This document shows, one piece after another, positions 8,331-38,886 of a DNA stretch of 39,037 nt. Source of the stretch: Candidatus Peregrinibacteria bacterium (GTDB lineage: Bacteria > Patescibacteriota > Gracilibacteria > UBA1369 > JABINC01); NCBI GenBank assembly GCA_030700255.1, contig JAUYJN010000030.1, positions 1 to 39,037 on the forward strand, written 5' to 3'. Within the stretch, counting starts at the first letter, position 1. Each line of letters begins with the position of its first letter. The translations under genes were made by a program, and so were the position numbers. The notes below the pieces were generated by a model. That model was not told where the DNA came from, searched no databases, and was given only the letters and a program-made list of their open reading frames with translations.

Positions 8331-8573
8331 ATGGAAAAAAAATCTAAAAGCAAAAAGGTTAACTTTATGATCAGATACGAAATACTTACCGAGCTGGAAG
8401 GGTTCGTAGATAGCGGCAAAAGAAGTGATTTTGTAAATGCAGCTTTAGAAAAAGCTATATCACTATTAAAACGAGAAATTGCTTTCAAAGAAATGGATAA
8501 ATTAAAAAAAGAATTGAATTTGAAGATGACAACTGAAGAGATAATTAAATTAAAAAATTATGGGCGGAAGTAA
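8331..8573 (+). CDS. Putative ribbon-helix-helix antitoxin
   Basis: The 80-residue, lysine-rich protein precedes and overlaps a PIN-domain toxin. The N-terminal KKVNFMIRYEILTELEGFV is compatible with a short beta strand and helix, and GKRSDFVNAALEKAI resembles the helix-turn-helix half of MetJ/Arc-type DNA-binding domains. The C-terminal half is a charged helix likely to bind the toxin. I recognise no exact family, so the call rests mainly on gene order and size. The overlap with the next gene is 14 bases, consistent with coupled translation. Confidence 0.7.
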   Translation: MEKKSKSKKVNFMIRYEILTELEGFVDSGKRSDFVNAALEKAISLLKREIAFKEMDKLKKELNLKMTTEEIIKLKNYGRK

Positions 8574-8991
8574 TAAGAAATGTATAATTGATTCTTCAGT
8601 AGCAATAAAATGGCTTCTAAACGAAGAAGATTCTGAGATCGCCATGCATTTGCGAAATTTATATAAACACGACTTGATAGATATCATCGTTCCGAGTCAT
8701 TTTTACTGGGAAATATGCAACGTTATGGCCAGAAAGGCAAGCGCCGGAGCCTTACGCTTTTTTTCTGAGTTAAGAATGTCAGATATTTTAGAAGTTCGCC
8801 TAACCAATAGAAATGCTTTAATGGCATGTAAGCTCATGGAAAAATATCCAAAAATTTCATTTTATGATGCAAGCTACCATGCTCTTGCAATTTTAGAAAA
8901 AGGCATATTTGTCACAGCCGATCAAAAATATTATGAAACAATGCGAGAGGAAGGAAGCATAATTTTATTGAAAAATTATAGCTTCAACTAA
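8560..8991 (+). CDS. PIN-domain ribonuclease toxin, VapC type
   Basis: The 143-residue protein has the four acidic residues of a PIN active site: Asp11 (IIDSS), Glu51 (WEICNV), Asp103 (YDASYHA) and Asp121 (TADQ). VapC toxins cut tRNA or rRNA and stop translation when the antitoxin is lost. The length fits the family and no active-site residue is missing, so the toxin is probably functional. The target RNA cannot be read from sequence. It ends 28 bases before the convergent glutamine synthetase gene. Confidence 0.88.
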   Translation: MGGSNKKCIIDSSVAIKWLLNEEDSEIAMHLRNLYKHDLIDIIVPSHFYWEICNVMARKASAGALRFFSELRMSDILEVRLTNRNALMACKLMEKYPKISFYDASYHALAILEKGIFVTADQKYYETMREEGSIILLKNYSFN

Positions 8992-18911: not shown

Positions 18912-19024
18912 CCACAACTCGCTTTTATACTTTACAAAACATAAAAAAGCTTGCCCACTAACACAAAAAAGCGTACAAAAAAGAAAAAGCCCCTTCAAAT
19001 ATCTCGCCTAAAAGCGAGTTAGCT
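18912..19024 (+). other. Array-head attachment site, copy A (attI/attC-like)
   Basis: A 12-base arm AACTCGCTTTTA (18916-18927) is perfectly complementary to TAAAAGCGAGTT (19009-19020), with 81 bases between. The outer 7-mers CCACAAC (18912-18918) and GTTAGCT (19018-19024) sit where integron R'' and R' cores would be. The same architecture and a homologous interior (shared TTTAT.CTTT, AAAAGCT.GCCCA) occur at 36212-36322. The stems of the two copies differ with compensating changes. It directly precedes the restriction-modification cassette. Confidence 0.65.
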
Positions 19025-19090
19025 GAAATATTCCTTTTCTTTTTTGGGCTATCGCCCAATTGTTTTAAAAAATTTTCAAATTTCTTTTTC
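19018..19090. repeat. Left terminal inverted repeat of the restriction cassette
   Basis: It starts with the core GTTAGCTGA and continues about 64 bases into the cassette. It is the near-perfect inverse of 25089-25159. Inside it the hairpin TTGGGC-TATC-GCCCAA (19044-19059) occupies the place of CCGAC-TATC-GTCGG in the right copy: the stems differ but both fold. Confidence 0.85.
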
Positions 19091-19097
19091 TTTTTTA

Positions 19098-19150
19098 TAA
19101 GGGGAAATATGGTGTTTTCTCCGCTCCCGCTGGTCGCTCCGAAAACCTTA
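19098..19150. repeat. Hairpin just inside the left repeat
   Basis: GTTTTC (19114-19119) pairs with GAAAAC (19141-19146), inside ATAAGG/CCTTAT outer arms. Its AGGGGAA motif and its position match the inverse of the tandem hairpins at 24964-25087, so it may be a worn counterpart that extends the terminal repeats. The match is partial. Confidence 0.4.
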
Positions 19151-19173
19151 TTTTATAACTAACGCTAACGCGC

Positions 19174-19179
19174 TATAAT
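19174..19179 (+). promoter_or_regulatory. Likely -10 element for the restriction-modification operon
   Basis: A perfect TATAAT lies 28 bases before the ATG of the methyltransferase gene. No good -35 hexamer is present at the proper distance (TTTTAT at 19151), so the promoter may be weak or need an activator. Confidence 0.4.
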
Positions 19180-19207: not shown

Positions 19208-20923
19208 ATGCCTACATTAAACTGGATCGGAAAAGACGCAGTAATAAACCACGACAAAGAGGTTCCTTTTCGGTTACTCAAAAAAGTTAAGTCATCTTCT
19301 GTAGGCAATTCTCAAAATTTGATTATCCATGGCGACAATCTTGAGGCATTGAAAGCTATAATGCCTTTTTATATCGGAAAGGTAAAATGCGTCTATATTG
19401 ATCCCCCATATAATACGGGAAATGAGGGCTGGGTTTATAACGACAAAGTAAATTCTCCGAAAATCAAAAAATGGCTTGGGAAAGTAGTGGGTAGAGATTC
19501 AGAAGATCTGTGTCGTCATGACAAATGGCTTTGTATGATGTATCCACGAATTAAACTCATCCACAGCCTATTAAGCGATGACGGACTTGCAATTATTCAC
19601 ATTGATGAAAATGAAGTTACTCATCTAAAAATCCTAATGGATGAGATATTTGGCGAAAGTAATGATCTTGGAACTATTGTTTGGGATAAACGGAACCCAA
19701 AAGGTGATTCTCAAAAAGTTTCCTACCAACACGAAAGTATAATCCTTTTCGCGAAAAACATTGAAAACATCAGGGGCAGTTTCTCAGTGAAAAAAGCAAA
19801 TGCAAAAGAAATTATCAAGAAAGCAAATAATCTATTTTCCAAATTGGGTAAAAAGGATTTACCAGAAGACATTAAAAAATTAGCTAAAGAGTATGATTTC
19901 CCCAAAGAATTTTTAGAAAAACAGTCTAAAATCTTCACTTTACAAGACATAAATAACGAGTTCCAAGTCTGGATGAAGAAACAAGATTTTACAGGGGGAG
20001 AGAAAGCCTACCGATTCATTGATCCAAAGGGAAAAGTTTATCGTGGAGTTTCAATGGCATGGCCAAACAAGAGCAAAGCTCCTGATGATTATTGGATACC
20101 TTTGATTCATCCAAAAACAAAAAAAGAATGCCCCTTGCCGTCACGAGGTTGGCGCTATCCTAGTTCAACAATGCAACAGCTTTTGGAGCAAGGATATATT
20201 CTTTTCGGAGAAGACCACAAGAAACAACCAGAGCGAAAATACTTGCTTGAAGAAAATATGAGTCAAAACCTTACTTCATTGATTAGCTTTGGAGGTAGTG
20301 ATGATTCTTTGCAAAAACAATTAGGTTATCAATTTGAAAATCCAAAACCAGTAACCTTTGCGGCCGACCTTTTAGATATTTTTACAAACAAAAATGACAT
20401 TATCCTAGACTCGTTTGCTGGCTCTGGCACAACAGCACACGCAGTTTTAAAGCTGAACAAATCGGATGAAGGAAGCAGAAAATTTGTACTAATAGAAATG
20501 GACGATAAAGTTGCAAAAGACATCACAGCCGAACGAGTAAAGCGAGCAATCAAACAATACGATTATAAAGACGGTTTTGAATATTGCGAACTCAGCAAAC
20601 CGCTTTTTGACGAAGAAGGTCAAATCGAAGACACATGCGACTTCGATCAATTCGCAACCTACATTTACTTTACCGAAACGCAAACAAATATTGACCCTGC
20701 CAAAGTATCGGCAAATTATATCGGCGAATACGCGGAAACTGAGTATTATCTGATTTACAAAGAAAAAGGCGAAAATGTGTTGAACAAATCTTTCTTGAAA
20801 AAACTAAAAAAGAACGACAGTAAAAAGGTTATTTACGCCGATAAGTGTTTGCTCGACGAAGCCACACTTGGAAAACAGAATATCGTCTTTAAGCAAATCC
20901 CTTACGAAGTTAAAATTTACTAA
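19208..20923 (+). CDS. mod: Type III restriction-modification system methyltransferase (Mod)
   Basis: The 571-residue protein methylates adenine N6 in the recognition site and supplies sequence specificity to the restriction complex. The catalytic motif IDPPYNTG (DPPY at 65-68) precedes the AdoMet-binding DSFAGSGTTAH (about 401-411), the order of beta-class enzymes typical of Mod subunits. The central region between the motifs (about 150-380) is the likely target-recognition domain. It starts a four-gene run with spacings of 2, 2 and -4 bases, which must be one operon. It lies inside an unusually large cassette bounded by inverted repeats. Confidence 0.93.
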   Translation: MPTLNWIGKDAVINHDKEVPFRLLKKVKSSSVGNSQNLIIHGDNLEALKAIMPFYIGKVKCVYIDPPYNTGNEGWVYNDKVNSPKIKKWLGKVVGRDSEDLCRHDKWLCMMYPRIKLIHSLLSDDGLAIIHIDENEVTHLKILMDEIFGESNDLGTIVWDKRNPKGDSQKVSYQHESIILFAKNIENIRGSFSVKKANAKEIIKKANNLFSKLGKKDLPEDIKKLAKEYDFPKEFLEKQSKIFTLQDINNEFQVWMKKQDFTGGEKAYRFIDPKGKVYRGVSMAWPNKSKAPDDYWIPLIHPKTKKECPLPSRGWRYPSSTMQQLLEQGYILFGEDHKKQPERKYLLEENMSQNLTSLISFGGSDDSLQKQLGYQFENPKPVTFAADLLDIFTNKNDIILDSFAGSGTTAHAVLKLNKSDEGSRKFVLIEMDDKVAKDITAERVKRAIKQYDYKDGFEYCELSKPLFDEEGQIEDTCDFDQFATYIYFTETQTNIDPAKVSANYIGEYAETEYYLIYKEKGENVLNKSFLKKLKKNDSKKVIYADKCLLDEATLGKQNIVFKQIPYEVKIY

Positions 20924-20925
20924 TT

Positions 20926-23202
20926 ATGGAACTCAAAAATTACCAAGTTAAAGCAATTGAAATCATCAACAGTTACCTGTTTTTCCTAGATCAGGTAGGG
21001 ACTGCTAAACGTGCATATATAGAGCTTAAAGAGGATGTTTATCACTCAGAATATTTTAATGATGTTCCATTTGTCTGCGTAAAAATACCTACAGGCGGAG
21101 GTAAAACACTTGTAGGCTGCCATGCCCTCAACGAAATCATGCGCTCTGCACTCAAACACAAAATGGATAGAGGCATAGTGATGTGGTTTGTTCCGTCCGA
21201 AGCGATTAAGTCTCAAACTCTCAAAAAATTTAAAGATCGCAACGATTGGCACAGACAAGTCTTAGACGAAGCGTTTCAAAACGGCGTGCGAATTTTTTCA
21301 AACGAGGAAGCTCTGAGAATTAGAAAGGAGGATGTACAGGACAATCTTTGTATTATCATTTCCAGCTTAGAAGCTTTCCGTAAAGAGAAAACACTACAAA
21401 AGAAATACAAGGTTTATCAGGAAAACGGCGCACTCTTGAGCCATTTTGAAAATCTGGACGGCCGAGATGATCTGGAAAAAGACGAGGAAGGCACAATTAT
21501 AAACTCGCTCGCAAATGTCATCCGTATGAGTAATCCCCTTGTCGTAATTGATGAGGGACACAAAACAAAAACTGAACTCTCAATAGATTTTCTAAACAGC
21601 CTCAACCCAAGTTTTGTCATTGAATACACCGCAACACCACGCGCCGGCAGTAACATTTTAGTAGATATTTCCCCTGCCGAACTCAAAGATGAGCAAATGG
21701 TGAAAATTCCGCTTGTACTCGAAAGCTCTGCCCAATGGCAAAACGCTGTTGCTCGCGGTCTTGAAAAACGAGCTGAACTTGAAAAAGACAGTAAAAAAAA
21801 TACTGGAGATTATATCCGCCCTATTGCCCTAATCCAAGCTCAGCCAAAGAGTAAAACGCAAAACAATGTAACGGTTGAGCAGATCAAAGAATATTTGCTT
21901 TCCGCCAAAATCTCCGAGGAGGAAATCGCAATCAAAACATCAGACCGAAACGATTTAGAGGGCATAGATTTATTTAACAAGAAATGCAAAATCCGCTACA
22001 TCATAACTGTTAGCGCGCTTGCTGAGGGTTGGGATTGTTCTTTTGCCTATGTTTTGATCTCCGTTGCCAATGTAGGGGCAAAAATAGCCGTTGAACAGAT
22101 CATCGGACGTATTATCCGCATGCCTTACGCAAAGAGAAAGAAGAACGAAGCATTAAACCGCTCCTATATTTTTGCTTCCGCTAAAAATTTCAATGAAGCC
22201 GCTAGCAATATCATTTCAGGACTTGAGAGAAATGGCTACAGCAAGCTGGATCTAATTGGTTCTTCATCAAACGGCGATACAGCCAAAGACCCGAAAGAAG
22301 TAAATCGAGCAGTGAAAAAGGATTTTGCCATTCCGATGATGAGTTTAGAGAACGAAAAACTAACTTTTGAAGAACTGATCGGCGAAGATTTTGAACTCGC
22401 GAAACAAAACGCCGAATTTGACTTTGAAATTCATTACGACAATGACGGTCGAGCCATAATTGATATTGAGGACGACAACAAGTGGCATAAAGGCAAACAG
22501 CAAATTCTCAATCTTACATACAGAGACAAAAACTTTTCAAAACAGGAATTGGTGCAATGGCTTGATAAAAAGCTCCGTTTCACCCTGCTTGATAAACCGA
22601 ACAAGGTAAAATTCATTGATAAAGCCGTTGATTATCAGCTAAAGCAGAAATCTTTAGCCGAGCTTTCTGTTAATCGTTATCTATTCCTTGATCGTCTGAA
22701 TGAAGCCATAAACAGCGTGCTAGAAGCATACGCAAAAAAGCGTTTTGTTGAGTTTGTAGCCAAAAAGAAAATTACGACCAAGACTTTTGATAATTTTCCA
22801 GAAACTATCACACTCAAAGAGGAAATACCGCAAGAGTTCAATAAAAATTACTACGAGAAAATCGACAAGCTGAACAAAGAGGAATTGAGTTTTGTCGAAC
22901 GCCTAGACCTTGATAGCCTGCCGAATGTTGCATTTTGGGTTCGCAATCGTGAAAAACAAGACCCCTTCTTTATTCAAGGCTGGAAGAAAGGCAAATTTTA
23001 CCCCGACTTTGTCGCGCTCACCAAAAAAGGCAACATCGTTGCCCTTGAATGGAAAGGCGAAGACAGAATCAGCAACGAAGACACGGGATACAAAGTTGAA
23101 ATTGCCGACGAATGGGTAAAGCTCGGCAAGAGCAAACTCCATTTCTTCTTGGTTCACAATGGGAATGTGGAGGAGGTTTTGACGAATTTAAAGACACTTT
23201 AA
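20926..23202 (+). CDS. res: Type III restriction enzyme subunit (Res)
   Basis: The 758-residue ATP-dependent nuclease works with Mod to cut unmethylated DNA. Superfamily 2 helicase motifs are clear: Walker A PTGGGKT (55-61), DEGH (209-212), EYTATPRAG soon after, and QIIGRIIRMPYA as motif VI. The C-terminus carries a PD-(D/E)xK-like nuclease: FYPDFVALTKKG then ALEWKG, about 45-65 residues before the end. All motifs are intact. The gene starts 2 bases after mod. The length is short for Res (often 850-1000), but no domain appears lost. Confidence 0.93.
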   Translation: MELKNYQVKAIEIINSYLFFLDQVGTAKRAYIELKEDVYHSEYFNDVPFVCVKIPTGGGKTLVGCHALNEIMRSALKHKMDRGIVMWFVPSEAIKSQTLKKFKDRNDWHRQVLDEAFQNGVRIFSNEEALRIRKEDVQDNLCIIISSLEAFRKEKTLQKKYKVYQENGALLSHFENLDGRDDLEKDEEGTIINSLANVIRMSNPLVVIDEGHKTKTELSIDFLNSLNPSFVIEYTATPRAGSNILVDISPAELKDEQMVKIPLVLESSAQWQNAVARGLEKRAELEKDSKKNTGDYIRPIALIQAQPKSKTQNNVTVEQIKEYLLSAKISEEEIAIKTSDRNDLEGIDLFNKKCKIRYIITVSALAEGWDCSFAYVLISVANVGAKIAVEQIIGRIIRMPYAKRKKNEALNRSYIFASAKNFNEAASNIISGLERNGYSKLDLIGSSSNGDTAKDPKEVNRAVKKDFAIPMMSLENEKLTFEELIGEDFELAKQNAEFDFEIHYDNDGRAIIDIEDDNKWHKGKQQILNLTYRDKNFSKQELVQWLDKKLRFTLLDKPNKVKFIDKAVDYQLKQKSLAELSVNRYLFLDRLNEAINSVLEAYAKKRFVEFVAKKKITTKTFDNFPETITLKEEIPQEFNKNYYEKIDKLNKEELSFVERLDLDSLPNVAFWVRNREKQDPFFIQGWKKGKFYPDFVALTKKGNIVALEWKGEDRISNEDTGYKVEIADEWVKLGKSKLHFFLVHNGNVEEVLTNLKTL

Positions 23203-23204
23203 TT

Positions 23205-24188
23205 ATGGATGAGGAAAAAATAACACAAATTTTCAATTTAGAATTTCCCCCATATATAGAAGAACTCAAAATTGGAGATTACATATTCAAAAGAGTAAAA
23301 AACTACAAAGAAGCCTTTGATGGCATGATGTGCTTAGTAAATTCATCAGGCAGCGAATTCAACACGCAAATTAAAGTCGGTTCTCACCAAATCACAGCAA
23401 TTGTAGAAATTCCTCAAAAAGAAAAAGGGTGTATTTTGCCGTTTGGAAACACAAAATTAACACAGCTTGACGATGTTTTATTCTTACTAACGATTTTTAC
23501 AGACAGGAATGTTTTTAAAAAGGACTGGGAAGATAGCGATAACATTGCGATAATTAGCGACCACAGAATACACCAGTATGGCGGTCAACTAGCCTGTTCA
23601 ATCAAATATGACTCTCGGTGGAAACATGTAGATACAGGAGAGTTAAAAACCGAGACGGAAATGAAAGGCATTCCGGTTTTTGATTATCACCAAATTAACA
23701 TTGGATTTGAAAATACCATAAACAAAGTACTCGATCTTATTTCAAGCAAAAAATGGCAAAATGAATATGAAGGTGGGTATTTTTTATTTCTGTTTAAATC
23801 TGCCATGCAAAGGCAAATTATTGAAACCTCCTTTATTTCATGCTGGACAATATGGGAACATATTTTTGCAATCAAAAATCGTAAATGGCTTGATAATAAA
23901 GCAATTGAGCAAATGAGTGGCGATAAGAAAATAGCCTTCATTTTGAATGAATATTTTTTGAAAAACATTGATGAAACGGCTAGAAAAAATATTCAGAAAA
24001 TAAACAAAACAAGGAATCGCCTAATTCATTTCGGAAAGAAAACAGAGCAGATTGACTATGATGAAATGGTAATGTTCATCAGGCTAACAGAGCAATTGAT
24101 AGCTATTATTTTCGAGCTATCCCCTTCAAATATATTCAATTCATTTGAAGCCTTGGACAAATTCTTAGCTGGCAAAAAGAAATCATGA
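23205..24188 (+). CDS. HEPN-motif protein linked to the type III system (gene 3)
   Basis: A longer frame overlaps res, but ATG 23205, two bases after the res stop, gives 327 residues and is the sensible start. The N-terminal 170 residues are beta-rich and unfamiliar. The C-terminal part is helical and ends in INKTRNRLIHFGKK. R270-N-x3-H275 there is the Rx4-6H motif of HEPN ribonucleases. The architecture recalls ApeA-type abortive-infection proteins, but identity is not shown. In this operon a role as an RNA-cutting backup, triggered when restriction fails or is attacked, is an inference. Confidence 0.65.
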   Translation: MDEEKITQIFNLEFPPYIEELKIGDYIFKRVKNYKEAFDGMMCLVNSSGSEFNTQIKVGSHQITAIVEIPQKEKGCILPFGNTKLTQLDDVLFLLTIFTDRNVFKKDWEDSDNIAIISDHRIHQYGGQLACSIKYDSRWKHVDTGELKTETEMKGIPVFDYHQINIGFENTINKVLDLISSKKWQNEYEGGYFLFLFKSAMQRQIIETSFISCWTIWEHIFAIKNRKWLDNKAIEQMSGDKKIAFILNEYFLKNIDETARKNIQKINKTRNRLIHFGKKTEQIDYDEMVMFIRLTEQLIAIIFELSPSNIFNSFEALDKFLAGKKKS

Positions 24189-24958
24189 GGAAAATAACCG
24201 CACAAATCAAAGAAGCAACATACGAGAATGTCGTCGTAGACTGCCCCAAGTGCAAAATTGAGTGTATTTTTAACAGAGTCTCTGATCTTAAAAGTATAAT
24301 GCCAATTTCAGGGCAAAATCTCAAATGTGAAACATGCGAAACAACCTTTTGGGCAACCGGCGATTTGGTGACAGCTGCAAAATACAGATGGTTTATAGAT
24401 GATCTGCCCATTTTGATGAAAAGCAAAAAATACGGTCTTTACATTCTAGCCTTGTGCCAAGCTTGTGAAGCATTTATGCACCAAGCAATAATTAACAAAC
24501 TTATTGACTATAATACTGATTATCGTGATCAGGAGGGCCATTTTTCCCATAATAAGCAAGTTGGTGCAGAAGCTTACAATCAAATTTACGAAGAGTTTTG
24601 CAATAGCAAAATCAGTGACATTACAAAAAATGGGCTGAAGAATAAAACCCAATACAAAAAGACCACGTTTGACAATTTGCGAGCACTTTTTCTACATATT
24701 TTTGATGATGAGAGAACAAACAAGTTAGCAACGTTAAAAAAACTCAAAGAAGACAAAAGAGCTAAAAGCTTTTGCGTGTTAGAAAAAACCACAATTAATA
24801 AAACAAGAAATGATACTATCCATAAAAACGCATATAGACCTAGTTTTTGCGATATACAAGAGTATGATGAGCTAATTAATAGTTTATACTGGCTTGGGGT
24901 ATATCTCGACGTAAATGATTCCACCCATTTCCTAAATAAGAGGATTAAACCTAAATAG
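24185..24958 (+). CDS. Zinc-ribbon HEPN-motif protein linked to the type III system (gene 4)
   Basis: The 257-residue product begins with four cysteines in CPKC (20-23) and CETC (48-51) pairs, a likely zinc ribbon. A helical domain follows whose INKTRNDTIHKNAY holds R208-N-x3-H213, again the HEPN Rx4-6H form. The motif shares INKTRN..IH with gene 3, so the two may be distant paralogues or a heteromeric pair. Its ATG overlaps the gene 3 stop by 4 bases (ATGA), a sign of tight co-translation. Possible roles are an RNase effector or its partner; I know no named family with this layout. Confidence 0.6.
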   Translation: MRKITAQIKEATYENVVVDCPKCKIECIFNRVSDLKSIMPISGQNLKCETCETTFWATGDLVTAAKYRWFIDDLPILMKSKKYGLYILALCQACEAFMHQAIINKLIDYNTDYRDQEGHFSHNKQVGAEAYNQIYEEFCNSKISDITKNGLKNKTQYKKTTFDNLRALFLHIFDDERTNKLATLKKLKEDKRAKSFCVLEKTTINKTRNDTIHKNAYRPSFCDIQEYDELINSLYWLGVYLDVNDSTHFLNKRIKPK

Positions 24959-24963
24959 AATAA

Positions 24964-25087
24964 GGTGTTTGAGGTCGGGGCAATTCACCCCTTTTGTTCC
25001 CCTCTTGCCCCTCCCTCAAACCATAAATAGGTGTTTTGGGTGGCGGTCATTCACCCCTTTTGTTCCCCTCTGCCCGCCACCCAAAAC
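24964..25087. repeat. Two tandem hairpins with an identical 23-base loop region
   Basis: Hairpin 1 pairs 24967-24983 with 25005-25021 (15 of 17 pairs); hairpin 2 pairs 25033-25046 with 25074-25087 (14 of 14). The stems have different sequences (GTTTGAGG... against GTTTTGGGTGGCGG), yet the loops share 23 identical bases (24983-25005 and 25049-25071, containing CACCCCTTTTGTTCCCC). They follow gene 4 by only a few bases and abut the right terminal repeat. No T-run follows, so they are not simple terminators. Confidence 0.85.
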
Positions 25088-25088
25088 G

Positions 25089-25159
25089 GAAAAAGAAATT
25101 TGAAAATTTTTTAAAACAACCGACTATCGTCGGAAAAGAAAAGGAATACATCAGCTAAC
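25089..25159. repeat. Right terminal inverted repeat of the restriction cassette
   Basis: It is the inverse of 19018-19090, ending in TCAGCTAAC, the exact complement of the left core GTTAGCTGA. It contains the hairpin CCGAC-TATC-GTCGG (25120-25133), whose stem differs from that of the left copy but still pairs. Confidence 0.85.
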
Positions 25160-25279
25160 ACTGCGTATGCGGTTACGGCTTGCTCCGTACCTCCGCAAGC
25201 CTCCACCAATATTTGCCAGTGGTAAGCACTTCGTGCAATTATACCACTGGCAAACATCGCATATTCTGGAACGTTAGCC
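25153..25279 (+). other. attC-like site of the restriction cassette
   Basis: Outer cores AGCTAAC (25153-25159) and GTTAGCC (25273-25279) bound a 127-base imperfect palindrome. Inner arms GCGTATGCGG and CGCATAT pair. A central stem TTTGCCAGTGGTA/TACCACTGGCAAA caps it. The CATATT...AACATCGCA...GAACGTT framework recurs in the sites at 26788 and 36710. Confidence 0.75.
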
Positions 25280-25311
25280 GGCAGATTCGTAAGAAATTAC
25301 GAGAGTTGCTA

Positions 25312-25339
25312 TTGACATAGTAGATTTTGTATATATAAT
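25312..25339 (+). promoter_or_regulatory. Promoter inside the second cassette
   Basis: A consensus -35 TTGACA (25312-25317), a 16-base spacer and a consensus -10 TATAAT (25334-25339) lie 23 bases upstream of the ATG at 25362. The cassette therefore carries its own strong promoter and need not rely on array read-through. Confidence 0.75.
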
Positions 25340-25361
25340 AATTAATTTATAAAACTTAGCA

Positions 25362-25997
25362 ATGGTACTAGAAAAAATCAAATCCATCGTTTCCCCAGTT
25401 GTCTTAGGAGCTGTAATTTCCATAATAGCTCCAGCATGTGCAACAACTCAACATAACACACGAACCAGAATTGAATCAGCAATTGCAGCCGAAGGAGGTA
25501 TTGAACAAATGGAATTCGAGAATTTTAGTGTTCGCTCTCTCCAATATCTAGAATTTCAATCAAGAGAACTACAAGATGACAAAGAAAGGTGTAATGCAAA
25601 TGTACTTTTTGACGGCGGGCAACTCCCAACAAAATGGCCAAAAGAAAAAGACGGACTATTTACCTTTCGCTTATTAGAAGATGAATTCCCGACTTGCCGC
25701 CCAGCAGATGAAGAAACAATAACAAGAAAGCCACTTATTGCTATTCAATTAACTGAGGGGTTGGTAACCAGAGTGTGGGAAAGAGCTAAAATTGTCGATG
25801 GTGAACCTAACGGAAAAAGTTATTTTAAATTACTTGCTATTCTGGGACCATCAGAGGAGAAACAACCATGGGGCGGACTTATAAGAAATAATTGGGGAAG
25901 CGATGGATTATTTATGTATGATCCAGCAGTAGCCCCACATCTCGCCACAATCGATAGAATGTTGACGGCACATTTAGCAGATTTAGGAGTAGAATAG
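25362..25997 (+). CDS. Cassette-borne exported protein of unknown function
   Basis: The 211-residue product opens with a short charged segment and a hydrophobic stretch (VVLGAVISIIAPACATT, about 13-29). This could be a signal peptide or a weak lipoprotein signal with Cys26; the residue three before the Cys is not ideal for a lipobox. The mature part has two further cysteines (ERCNAN and FPTCRP) and no motif I recognise. It has its own promoter. As a single-gene cassette of unknown function it is typical of integron cargo. Confidence 0.7.
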   Translation: MVLEKIKSIVSPVVLGAVISIIAPACATTQHNTRTRIESAIAAEGGIEQMEFENFSVRSLQYLEFQSRELQDDKERCNANVLFDGGQLPTKWPKEKDGLFTFRLLEDEFPTCRPADEETITRKPLIAIQLTEGLVTRVWERAKIVDGEPNGKSYFKLLAILGPSEEKQPWGGLIRNNWGSDGLFMYDPAVAPHLATIDRMLTAHLADLGVE

Positions 25998-26019
25998 GAC
26001 AGCTTTTGAGGCTTTCATC

Positions 26020-26139
26020 GTACAACAGAGACTTTGCGGTACCGTTCGCCTGCGGCTCACTCCACCAAAATTGGGCGGAGGTAAGGCATGTAGCCATATT
26101 GTATCGCCACCCAACTTCGCAAAGTCCCTGATGTTGTGC
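26020..26139 (+). other. attC-like site of the second cassette
   Basis: GTACAAC (26020-26026) and GTTGTGC (26133-26139) bound 120 bases. ACTTTGCGG pairs with CGCAAAGT, and an inner TTGGGCGG/CCACCCAA pairing is present. The left core of this cassette (GTTAGCC) does not complement GTACAAC, unlike the other cassettes. Confidence 0.6.
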
Positions 26140-35058: not shown

Positions 35059-35964
35059 TCAAAATGGACTTTTGACTCCACACAGAGCGCTTTCAGTAAC
35101 TTTTGTATATATAAGTGTGGTTCTCAAATCCTTATGTCCAAGGAATTTTTGAATATACGAAATACTAACTCCACTTTCCAAAAGATGCGTCGCAAAACTA
35201 TGTCGAAGCGAATGAAAGGACGCATTTTTCATAACCCCTGAGTTCTCCAAACTTTTTTTAAATATCTTTTGCAAAGTTGCAACACTTAACTTGCCACCCC
35301 TCCGACTTTCAAATAAATACGTCATCCGATTTCGCGAATTCACTCCAGCGCACTTCCACCTAACAATATCCGCAATCTCAATCAACAATTTATCAGGTAA
35401 AATCGTGAATCTATCGCGCCCACCTTTTGCATTGCGCACATGAATTAATTTCCTTTCAAAATCGAGGTCACACAATTGCAATTTCGTCACCTCAGAAACA
35501 CGAAGACCAGCCCCATAAGCAAGACTAATAATCAATTTATGTTTAGGATTTTTTGTAACCTCTATGCATTTCAAAATCTCATTTTTGCTCAAAACAACAG
35601 GTAGGCGCTTTACTTTTTTAGCAAAACTAACACGAATTTTACGCTTCGATTTCGCCACACGTTTATAAAAAAACTTAATCGCGCAGAGGTAAACATTTAG
35701 CGTCGAAGACGCCACCCCTCTGTCCGCTTTATATTTCAAAAACATTTTAATATGAGCATAAGAAGGCGTTTTCAGCATTCCACAATATTTAATTGTAGAA
35801 AAATATTCTTCCAAACAATGGGTATAAGCTTCGATCGTCCGCTTACTAAAACCGGTGATCGCAAGTTCATTTGAAAAATAATGCCATTCACGAACCATAC
35901 GTTTAACGTAAACAGGCCCTTGCCCACTCTCATTAAGCCTTTCAAAAAAATCTTCCGTAGCCAT
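35059..35964 (-). CDS. Tyrosine recombinase, likely the cassette integrase
   Basis: The 301-residue enzyme has an N-terminal SAM-like DNA-binding domain (about 20-105) and a full catalytic domain: Arg155 (GLRVSE), Lys180, His251 and Arg254 (HSLRHSF), His277 (LGHKD) and Tyr286 (LIYTKV). It ends GVKSPF, as many Xer/IntI-like enzymes do. The extra segment that IntI integrases carry between the Lys and HxxR motifs is absent, so by sequence it is Xer-like. Yet it is transcribed away from a cassette array with an attI-like site about 250 bases upstream, the standard integron layout. A plain XerC/D role is the alternative. Confidence 0.85.
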   Translation of the reverse strand: MATEDFFERLNESGQGPVYVKRMVREWHYFSNELAITGFSKRTIEAYTHCLEEYFSTIKYCGMLKTPSYAHIKMFLKYKADRGVASSTLNVYLCAIKFFYKRVAKSKRKIRVSFAKKVKRLPVVLSKNEILKCIEVTKNPKHKLIISLAYGAGLRVSEVTKLQLCDLDFERKLIHVRNAKGGRDRFTILPDKLLIEIADIVRWKCAGVNSRNRMTYLFESRRGGKLSVATLQKIFKKSLENSGVMKNASFHSLRHSFATHLLESGVSISYIQKFLGHKDLRTTLIYTKVTESALCGVKSPF

Positions 35965-36709: not shown

Positions 36710-36841
36710 ACTTAACACGCAGTATGCGGCTACAGTTTGCTGCGTTTCACTCCGCAAACTTCCGCCCATATTCACTGGCTGTACCGCACTTCGTGCGATA
36801 TTATACAGCCAGTGAACATCGCATACTGCGGAACGTTATAT
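36710..36841 (+). other. attC-like site of the first cassette
   Basis: ACTTAAC (36710-36716) and GTTATAT (36835-36841) bound 132 bases. GCAGTATGCGG pairs with CGCATACTGC, and TTCACTGGCTGTA pairs with TACAGCCAGTGAA in the capped centre. ACTTAAC is the exact complement of the cassette's own left core GTTAAGT. Confidence 0.8.
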
Positions 36842-38640: not shown

Positions 38641-38694
38641 CGCCAAAAAAAATTCTAAAGCGTATTAAAGAAATTTCTGGCTACATCACATAAC
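38641..38694. repeat. Right terminal inverted repeat of the PsbP-like cassette
   Basis: The inverse of 37940-37992, starting two bases after the stop codon and ending in TCACATAAC (38686-38694), which complements ATTATGTGA with one mismatch. Confidence 0.85.
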
Positions 38695-38886
38695 AGCGTG
38701 TATCTGGCTACGGAAAATTGGCGTTAATTAAATCTATATGGAGTGCCAATTTTCCTCCGACCAAAATTTCATCCCTTAGTTTGATGAAGGTTTGGGTGGA
38801 GTTCTATCAAAAAAGCGTGCGTCTAATAATAGAAGTTTATCCTGCTAAATCGGGATGAACACTTCAGATACACGCGAACGTTGTAA
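38688..38886 (+). other. attC-like site of the PsbP-like cassette (199 bases)
   Basis: ACATAAC (38688-38694) and GTTGTAA (38880-38886) are the outer cores. GCGTGTATCTGG pairs with CAGATACACGC. The site is longer than the others because of an extended interior. Confidence 0.7.

Follow-up and report, generated by a model that had tools for sequence, protein, structure and literature searches.

The closest described systems are integrons, in which genes are followed by attC palindromes with an R''/L''/L'/R' layout and are arranged in one-direction arrays beside a divergent tyrosine recombinase. How new gene cassettes arise is listed among the outstanding questions of the integron field (PMC8618304), and IntegronFinder recognizes the integron integrase IntI by its additional domain (PMC9668308). 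We found no literature on integrons in Patescibacteria/CPR and no description of the hairpin family or cassette frames presented here, which thus appear to be undescribed in the searchable papers; most subscription journals were outside both searches.

We analyzed a 39,037-nucleotide stretch of DNA from a Candidatus Peregrinibacteria bacterium (the window). The original prediction was that positions 24964 to 25087 hold two adjacent hairpins whose 23-nt loops are identical and whose stems are unrelated, and this was confirmed at those positions. The two hairpins (H1 and H2, members of the family that we refer to as H), the remaining parts of their cassette, and the neighboring features were as follows.

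19018-19043, + strand: left outer arm GTTAGCTGAAATATTCCTTTTCTTTT, which begins at the G^TT crossover and is an inverted match to 25134-25159
19044-19059, + strand: small hairpin TTGGGC-TATC-GCCCAA, terminator-like and directed into the cassette
19060-19090, + strand: left inverted repeat of family A, TTGTTTTAAAAAATTTTCAAATTTCTTTTTC
19099-19112, + strand: left G-rich motif AAGGGGAAATATGG, the inverse counterpart to part of the H loop
19114-19146, + strand: left hairpin (LH), with stem GTTTTC/GAAAAC (GTTTCC/GGAAAC in relatives) and loop TCCGCT...
19152-19179, + strand: promoter-like TTTATA-N16-TATAAT between LH and the first gene, a consensus match only
19208-24958, + strand: cargo genes for an N6/N4 DNA methylase, a ResIII-type restriction enzyme, an Apea-like HEPN protein, and an uncharacterized 257-aa protein
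24967-25021, + strand: H1, the first constant-loop hairpin, 8 nt past the stop codon, with its loop at 24984-25004
25033-25087, + strand: H2, the second constant-loop hairpin, with a stem unrelated to that of H1 and its loop at 25050-25070
25089-25119, + strand: right inverted repeat GAAAAAGAAATTTGAAAATTTTTTAAAACAA
25120-25133, - strand: small hairpin CCGAC-TATC-GTCGG, terminator-like on the minus strand and directed into the cassette
25134-25159, + strand: right outer arm AAAAGAAAAGGAATACATCAGCTAAC, the end of which is the R'' box of the attC-like site
25153-25279, + strand: attC-like site of 127 nt, R'' AGCTAAC ... R' GTTAGCC, with a G^TT crossover
25274-26139, + strand: next cassette, a simple type without H, with a promoter-like site (25312-25339), an ORF (25362-25997), and an attC-like site (26020-26139)
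35059-35964, - strand: IntI/XerA-like tyrosine recombinase without the IntI-specific stretch
36710-36841 and 38688-38886: attC-like sites on the other side of the recombinase gene

Elsewhere in the window (positions 8331 to 8991), small ORFs of 80 and 143 aa overlapped and, by eye only, resembled a PIN-type toxin-antitoxin pair.

In H1, 15 of the 17 stem pairs were formed; in H2, 16 of the 17 were formed, and the outer 14 pairs were perfect. The common loop, ATTCACCCCTTTTGTTCCCCTCT, was identical across 23 nt and had no other copy in the window when up to 3 mismatches in 22 nt were allowed (none was expected in 100 shuffles). The folding of H1 and H2 exceeded that of shuffled sequence on either strand (z scores of -3.3 to -4.5). 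As predicted, the hairpins abut a terminal repeat, namely, the right inverted repeat starting at position 25089. The worn inverse counterpart that had been noted at 19098 to 19150 belongs to the opposite end of the same element, where a matching inverted repeat and an AGGGG motif were found, but the hairpin located there (19114 to 19146) has a different loop. A second tandem H pair was identified in the same genome (contig C7, locus L005:2812-2938), behind a different restriction-type gene set and with the same AT-rich repeat downstream. The right end of this pair was decayed past the inverted repeat, and our search for an attC site there found none.

The genome search with the loop that had been suggested alongside the original prediction recovered a family. 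Exact matches in public genomes were found at 21 loci, nearly all of them in Patescibacteria (Peregrini-, Magasanik-, Kerfeld-, Gracili-, and Paceibacteria), and none came from viral contigs. Two of the H loci (L031 and L041) came from bins labeled as Flavobacteriales and Gastranaerophilales; their contigs are about 4 kb long and are possibly mis-binned Patescibacteria. When 3 mismatches were allowed, the loop was present in 18 of the 89 genomes of the order. A covariance model made from 36 aligned hairpins detected H in 31 of 88 genomes in the order and in 33 of 380 genomes across the phylum. Nearly all of the loci found via the loop alone also carried the stem, and a widespread stemless loop was not seen.

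The loop core of the family is ATTCACCCC-(2-7 nt)-CCCCTCT, and the stem is 17 bp long, with 82% paired cells in the alignment of 36 hairpins. Double-sided stem changes numbered 117 in the 36 relatives, compared to 41 in shuffles, and none of the 500 shuffles reached 117; no alternative came close in covariation when the stem register was slid along the alignment. Thus, the claim that the loop stays constant while the stems are exchanged held across the family. The stems ranged from GC-rich to nearly pure AT, their feet read GTTTT...AAAAC, and the tetranucleotide GG(A/T)G was located immediately 5' of the hairpin. The loop also resembled the anti-Shine-Dalgarno sequence, although this is a resemblance only.

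Hybrid hairpins, with the left arm of one type and the right arm of another, were observed at L053:9715 and L050:12175. The L050 hairpin, in which the left half of H was fused to the right half of LH between two genes, suggests a merging of neighboring cassettes. We also considered recombination within the loop, based on these two hairpins and L094, and rejected it: the hybrids are no proof of a recombinase, and the comparison of L094 with its relative L129 fits a slippage deletion between tandem loops.

H was usually located shortly after the last stop codon of a cassette. Among the 105 hairpins that were first in their row, 87 came after an ORF of 100 codons or more on the same strand, and 65 of these 87 began 0 to 12 nt past the stop codon; at least six of the remaining 18 were beside a long reversed ORF. 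An attC-like stem, defined strictly as a perfect 10-bp stem, was present within 480 nt downstream of 53 of 100 hairpins. The corresponding counts were 34 of 589 for random windows drawn from these loci and 2 of 600 for shuffled windows. Under a looser criterion, 80 of 125 hairpins had an attC-like site behind them; downstream sequence of at least 400 nt was available for 100 of the 125. Matching R boxes were not required in these searches, as a stricter version missed many sites. The distance from H to the downstream attC-like site was about 60 to 170 nt. The proposal that the hairpins are a landing site for a recombinase or transposase was therefore borne out with regard to the recombination context, but not with regard to a transposase, as no association with Y1 transposases was found.

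The cargo in front of H was diverse. The 78 last genes before H contained 81 Pfam families, none of which occurred in more than four members, and HEPN was absent from the 25 most common of these families. Other H sites came after methylases, restriction enzymes, redox proteins, and other genes, and defense-type models recurred among the cargo genes. Of the expected relation to HEPN or restriction loci, the restriction loci did recur, but only as part of a broad cargo range, and the HEPN part was not supported.

Comparison of the cassettes revealed a standard anatomy. The 3' module consists of H, a 30-bp inverted repeat, a small hairpin, and an attC-like site of 100 to 130 nt, in this order; the 5' module consists of the outer arm at the G^TT crossover, a small hairpin, an inverted repeat, the AGGGG motif, and LH. 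The left and right ends are mutual inverted repeats and fell into family A (TTGTTTTAAAAAATTTTCAAATTTCTTTTTC, the family in the window), family B (GCTCTTAAAAAGAATCCGATTTTGTTTTTC), and a third, B-like family in genome G099. The two ends of one cassette matched by family, with a mean score of 23.0 compared to 13.5 for other pairs. The left-end motif is of the type A(G/A)GGGG, and its AGAGGGGAA form complements the TTCCCCTCT of the H loop. LH has a near-constant loop of its own and two exchanging stems; the idea that it encodes a leader peptide was discarded because, by eye on the sequences, the reading frame is lost when the loop length changes.

We then compared 217 pairs of cassettes whose 3' modules were at least 80% identical. 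In most pairs, similarity started at the left foot of H (H1 in the case of tandems), and in none did it extend more than 200 nt upstream. In addition, unrelated cargo genes carried identical module types. Because similarity starts at the foot of H and the cargo is diverse, H is the joint between a variable gene and a standard attC module. On this sequence evidence, H is almost certainly the 3' boundary of the framed cassettes.

The layout of genes followed by palindromes with R''/L''/L'/R' boxes was found in these cassettes, and the one-direction array beside a divergent tyrosine recombinase gene was found in genome G099 and, by position, in eleven further contigs of the order, where H and a recombinase had the same divergent layout. 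In the case of G099 (contig C1, about 252 to 292 kb, loci L119 and L120), about 14 cassettes point in one direction, away from the recombinase gene. Each contains a gene, H in most cassettes, a downstream stretch, and an attC-like palindrome, the R' of which reads ATT instead of GTT in most cassettes; by eye, most copies of the downstream stretch contain a promoter-like TTGCAC-N17/18-TATAAT. A RAYT-like gene, also identified by eye, is beside this recombinase. The H cassette of the window was on the opposite side of its recombinase gene, as a two-cassette cluster.

Many genomes of the order encoded IntI/XerA-like tyrosine recombinases of 275 to 300 aa next to attC arrays (for example, L054 328-1152 and L055 14355-15197). 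With the genomes sorted by match positions, IntI-like recombinases were present in 24 of the 31 H genomes, compared to 22 of the 57 others (P = 0.0007). These recombinases matched the integron integrase model TIGR02249 in two pieces and below the cutoff; the middle stretch was missing, and the IntI-specific additional domain was not found in the matches. In the order searched, only genome G081 yielded a match above the curated IntI cutoff. Since the recombinase lacks the domain that IntegronFinder uses, these integron-type systems of Patescibacteria, which carry much defense cargo, would probably be scored as recombinase-less clusters. H operates within, and looks like a part of, integron-type cassettes. 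We do not call the system a canonical integron because its recombinase is without the IntI-specific domain and because its recombination is a prediction from sequence.

We consider it most likely, with about an even chance of being correct, that H serves at the DNA level as a boundary and folding aid for the recombination structure of the cassette. In a single-stranded cassette, the 5' and 3' modules are predicted to pair into a giant hairpin with attC at its tip. H and LH would stand as side hairpins at the base, where they would present a fixed single-stranded loop and close the structure at the edge of the gene. Such closing could help attC to fold and could mark the joint between gene and attC. 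The stems of H would be free to drift, as they need only to pair with themselves and not with neighbors. To model the excised circle, we joined both cassette ends at the predicted crossover. The predicted fold of the resulting 450-nt sequence was a single long hairpin tipped by attC, at -126 kcal/mol for the bottom strand and -120 kcal/mol for the top strand, compared to about -44 and -40 kcal/mol for shuffled sequences.

A DNA-level action of H, which we infer, is supported by several of the results above: the covarying stem and constant loop, the stop codon spacing, the nearby attC-like sites, the edge of similarity at the foot of H, the family-matched ends, the fold of the circle junction, the enrichment of recombinases in H genomes, and the G099 array. 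However, the giant fold was predicted from a hypothetical joined end and was poorer at L122, a neighboring pair of unlike frames. The tight spacing of 0 to 12 nt would also fit a role at the 3' end of the mRNA, our second-ranked explanation, which we regard as possible but less likely. Here, a stem-loop behind the stop codon would shield the transcript from 3' exonucleases, and a host protein would bind the loop. The H hairpin is predicted to be stable as RNA, and the promoter-like sites in the window and in G099 suggest that cassettes are transcribed separately. Three observations point away from the mRNA and toward the DNA: wobbles in the H stems showed no sense-strand excess (14 G.T compared to 28 A.C, a weak test with P = 0.04), H also occurs beside reversed genes, and the equally constrained LH is upstream of the promoter-like site in the window.

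The position behind the stop codon and the C-rich loop could likewise indicate a transcription terminator, either intrinsic or Rho dependent, and H2 does hold an alternative GGGTGG...TCACCC-CTTTTGTT match. This match is not conserved; in the family, no T-tract follows the stem, the feet have a polarity opposite to that of an intrinsic terminator, and the alternative mini-hairpin is impossible in AT-rich stems and has no T-run in TAA-type loops. The Rho RNA-binding domain was undetected in the window's own genome and in 86 of the 88 genomes of the order (it was found in two), and we consider a terminator very unlikely. It is improbable, although slightly less so, that H is a passive relic, a part of a module that was spread by cassette movement and has no function of its own. 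Modules have clearly spread among cassettes, and decayed and hybrid copies of H exist, but the compensatory stem changes and the unchanged loop throughout the phylum imply selection. We see little chance that a single-strand Y1 (RAYT) transposase uses H and LH as REP-like substrates and mobilizes the gene that they flank. The GG(A/T)G directly 5' of the hairpin is placed like the GTAG of REPs (PMC8266576), and the G099 array has its RAYT-like gene; however, Y1_Tnp was present in 7 of the 31 H genomes and in 16 of the 57 others (P = 0.62), most H-rich genomes had none, and REPs are defined by conserved palindromes, whereas the stem of H is free. Least probable is the explanation originally offered, in which H acts as an RNA antitoxin or as a small RNA to which HEPN proteins bind. 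In the window, H does come after the HEPN gene and the ORF following that gene, but the window had no Rfam match above the gathering score, and the diverse cargo, with no recurrent HEPN gene and no constant toxin partner, refuted this idea as a general explanation.

Returning to the DNA-level role, H cannot be required for every attC, as simple cassettes without H exist (the second cassette of the window). A bolder proposal, which we judge rather unlikely, is that the frames are pre-made casings into which genes are loaded, with LH on one side and H on the other, and that any ORF could become a cassette in this way. If this is true, then the casing would supply each loaded ORF with a promoter, insulation, and attC, and H would be the joint that fuses the end of a gene to the attC module, which would provide a concrete account of cassette birth. 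H is a new clue to how the swappable gene cassettes of the ultra-small Patescibacteria are built: because the point at which a gene meets its attC module is marked by a hairpin across the phylum, and the same modules are found on unrelated genes, the question of cassette birth can be tested by comparing joints.

Compared with known systems, the cassettes described here resemble integron cassettes and chromosomal integrons in that attC-like palindromes with RYYYAAC/GTTRRRY-type boxes bound the genes, the arrays are unidirectional and point away from a divergently oriented tyrosine recombinase gene, and the cargo consists mostly of accessory and defense genes. They differ in their long inverted-repeat frames, H and LH, and promoter-like sites, in a recombinase without the IntI-specific stretch, and, in some arrays such as G099, in having ATT rather than GTT at the crossover. 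Like attC sites, which are recognized by their folded structure and vary in sequence, H would be read through its fold; it differs in being a separate hairpin 60 to 170 nt upstream of attC, with a fixed loop of 18 to 23 nt and a variable stem. H shares with REPs an extragenic hairpin behind a fixed tetranucleotide (GG(A/T)G for H and mostly GTAG for REPs) and differs in its fixed loop and free stem, its few copies per genome, and its lack of association with a Y1 transposase. Finally, like intrinsic terminators, H is a stem-loop near the stop codon; unlike them, it has no T-tract, its loop is large and fixed, and its feet are of the opposite polarity.
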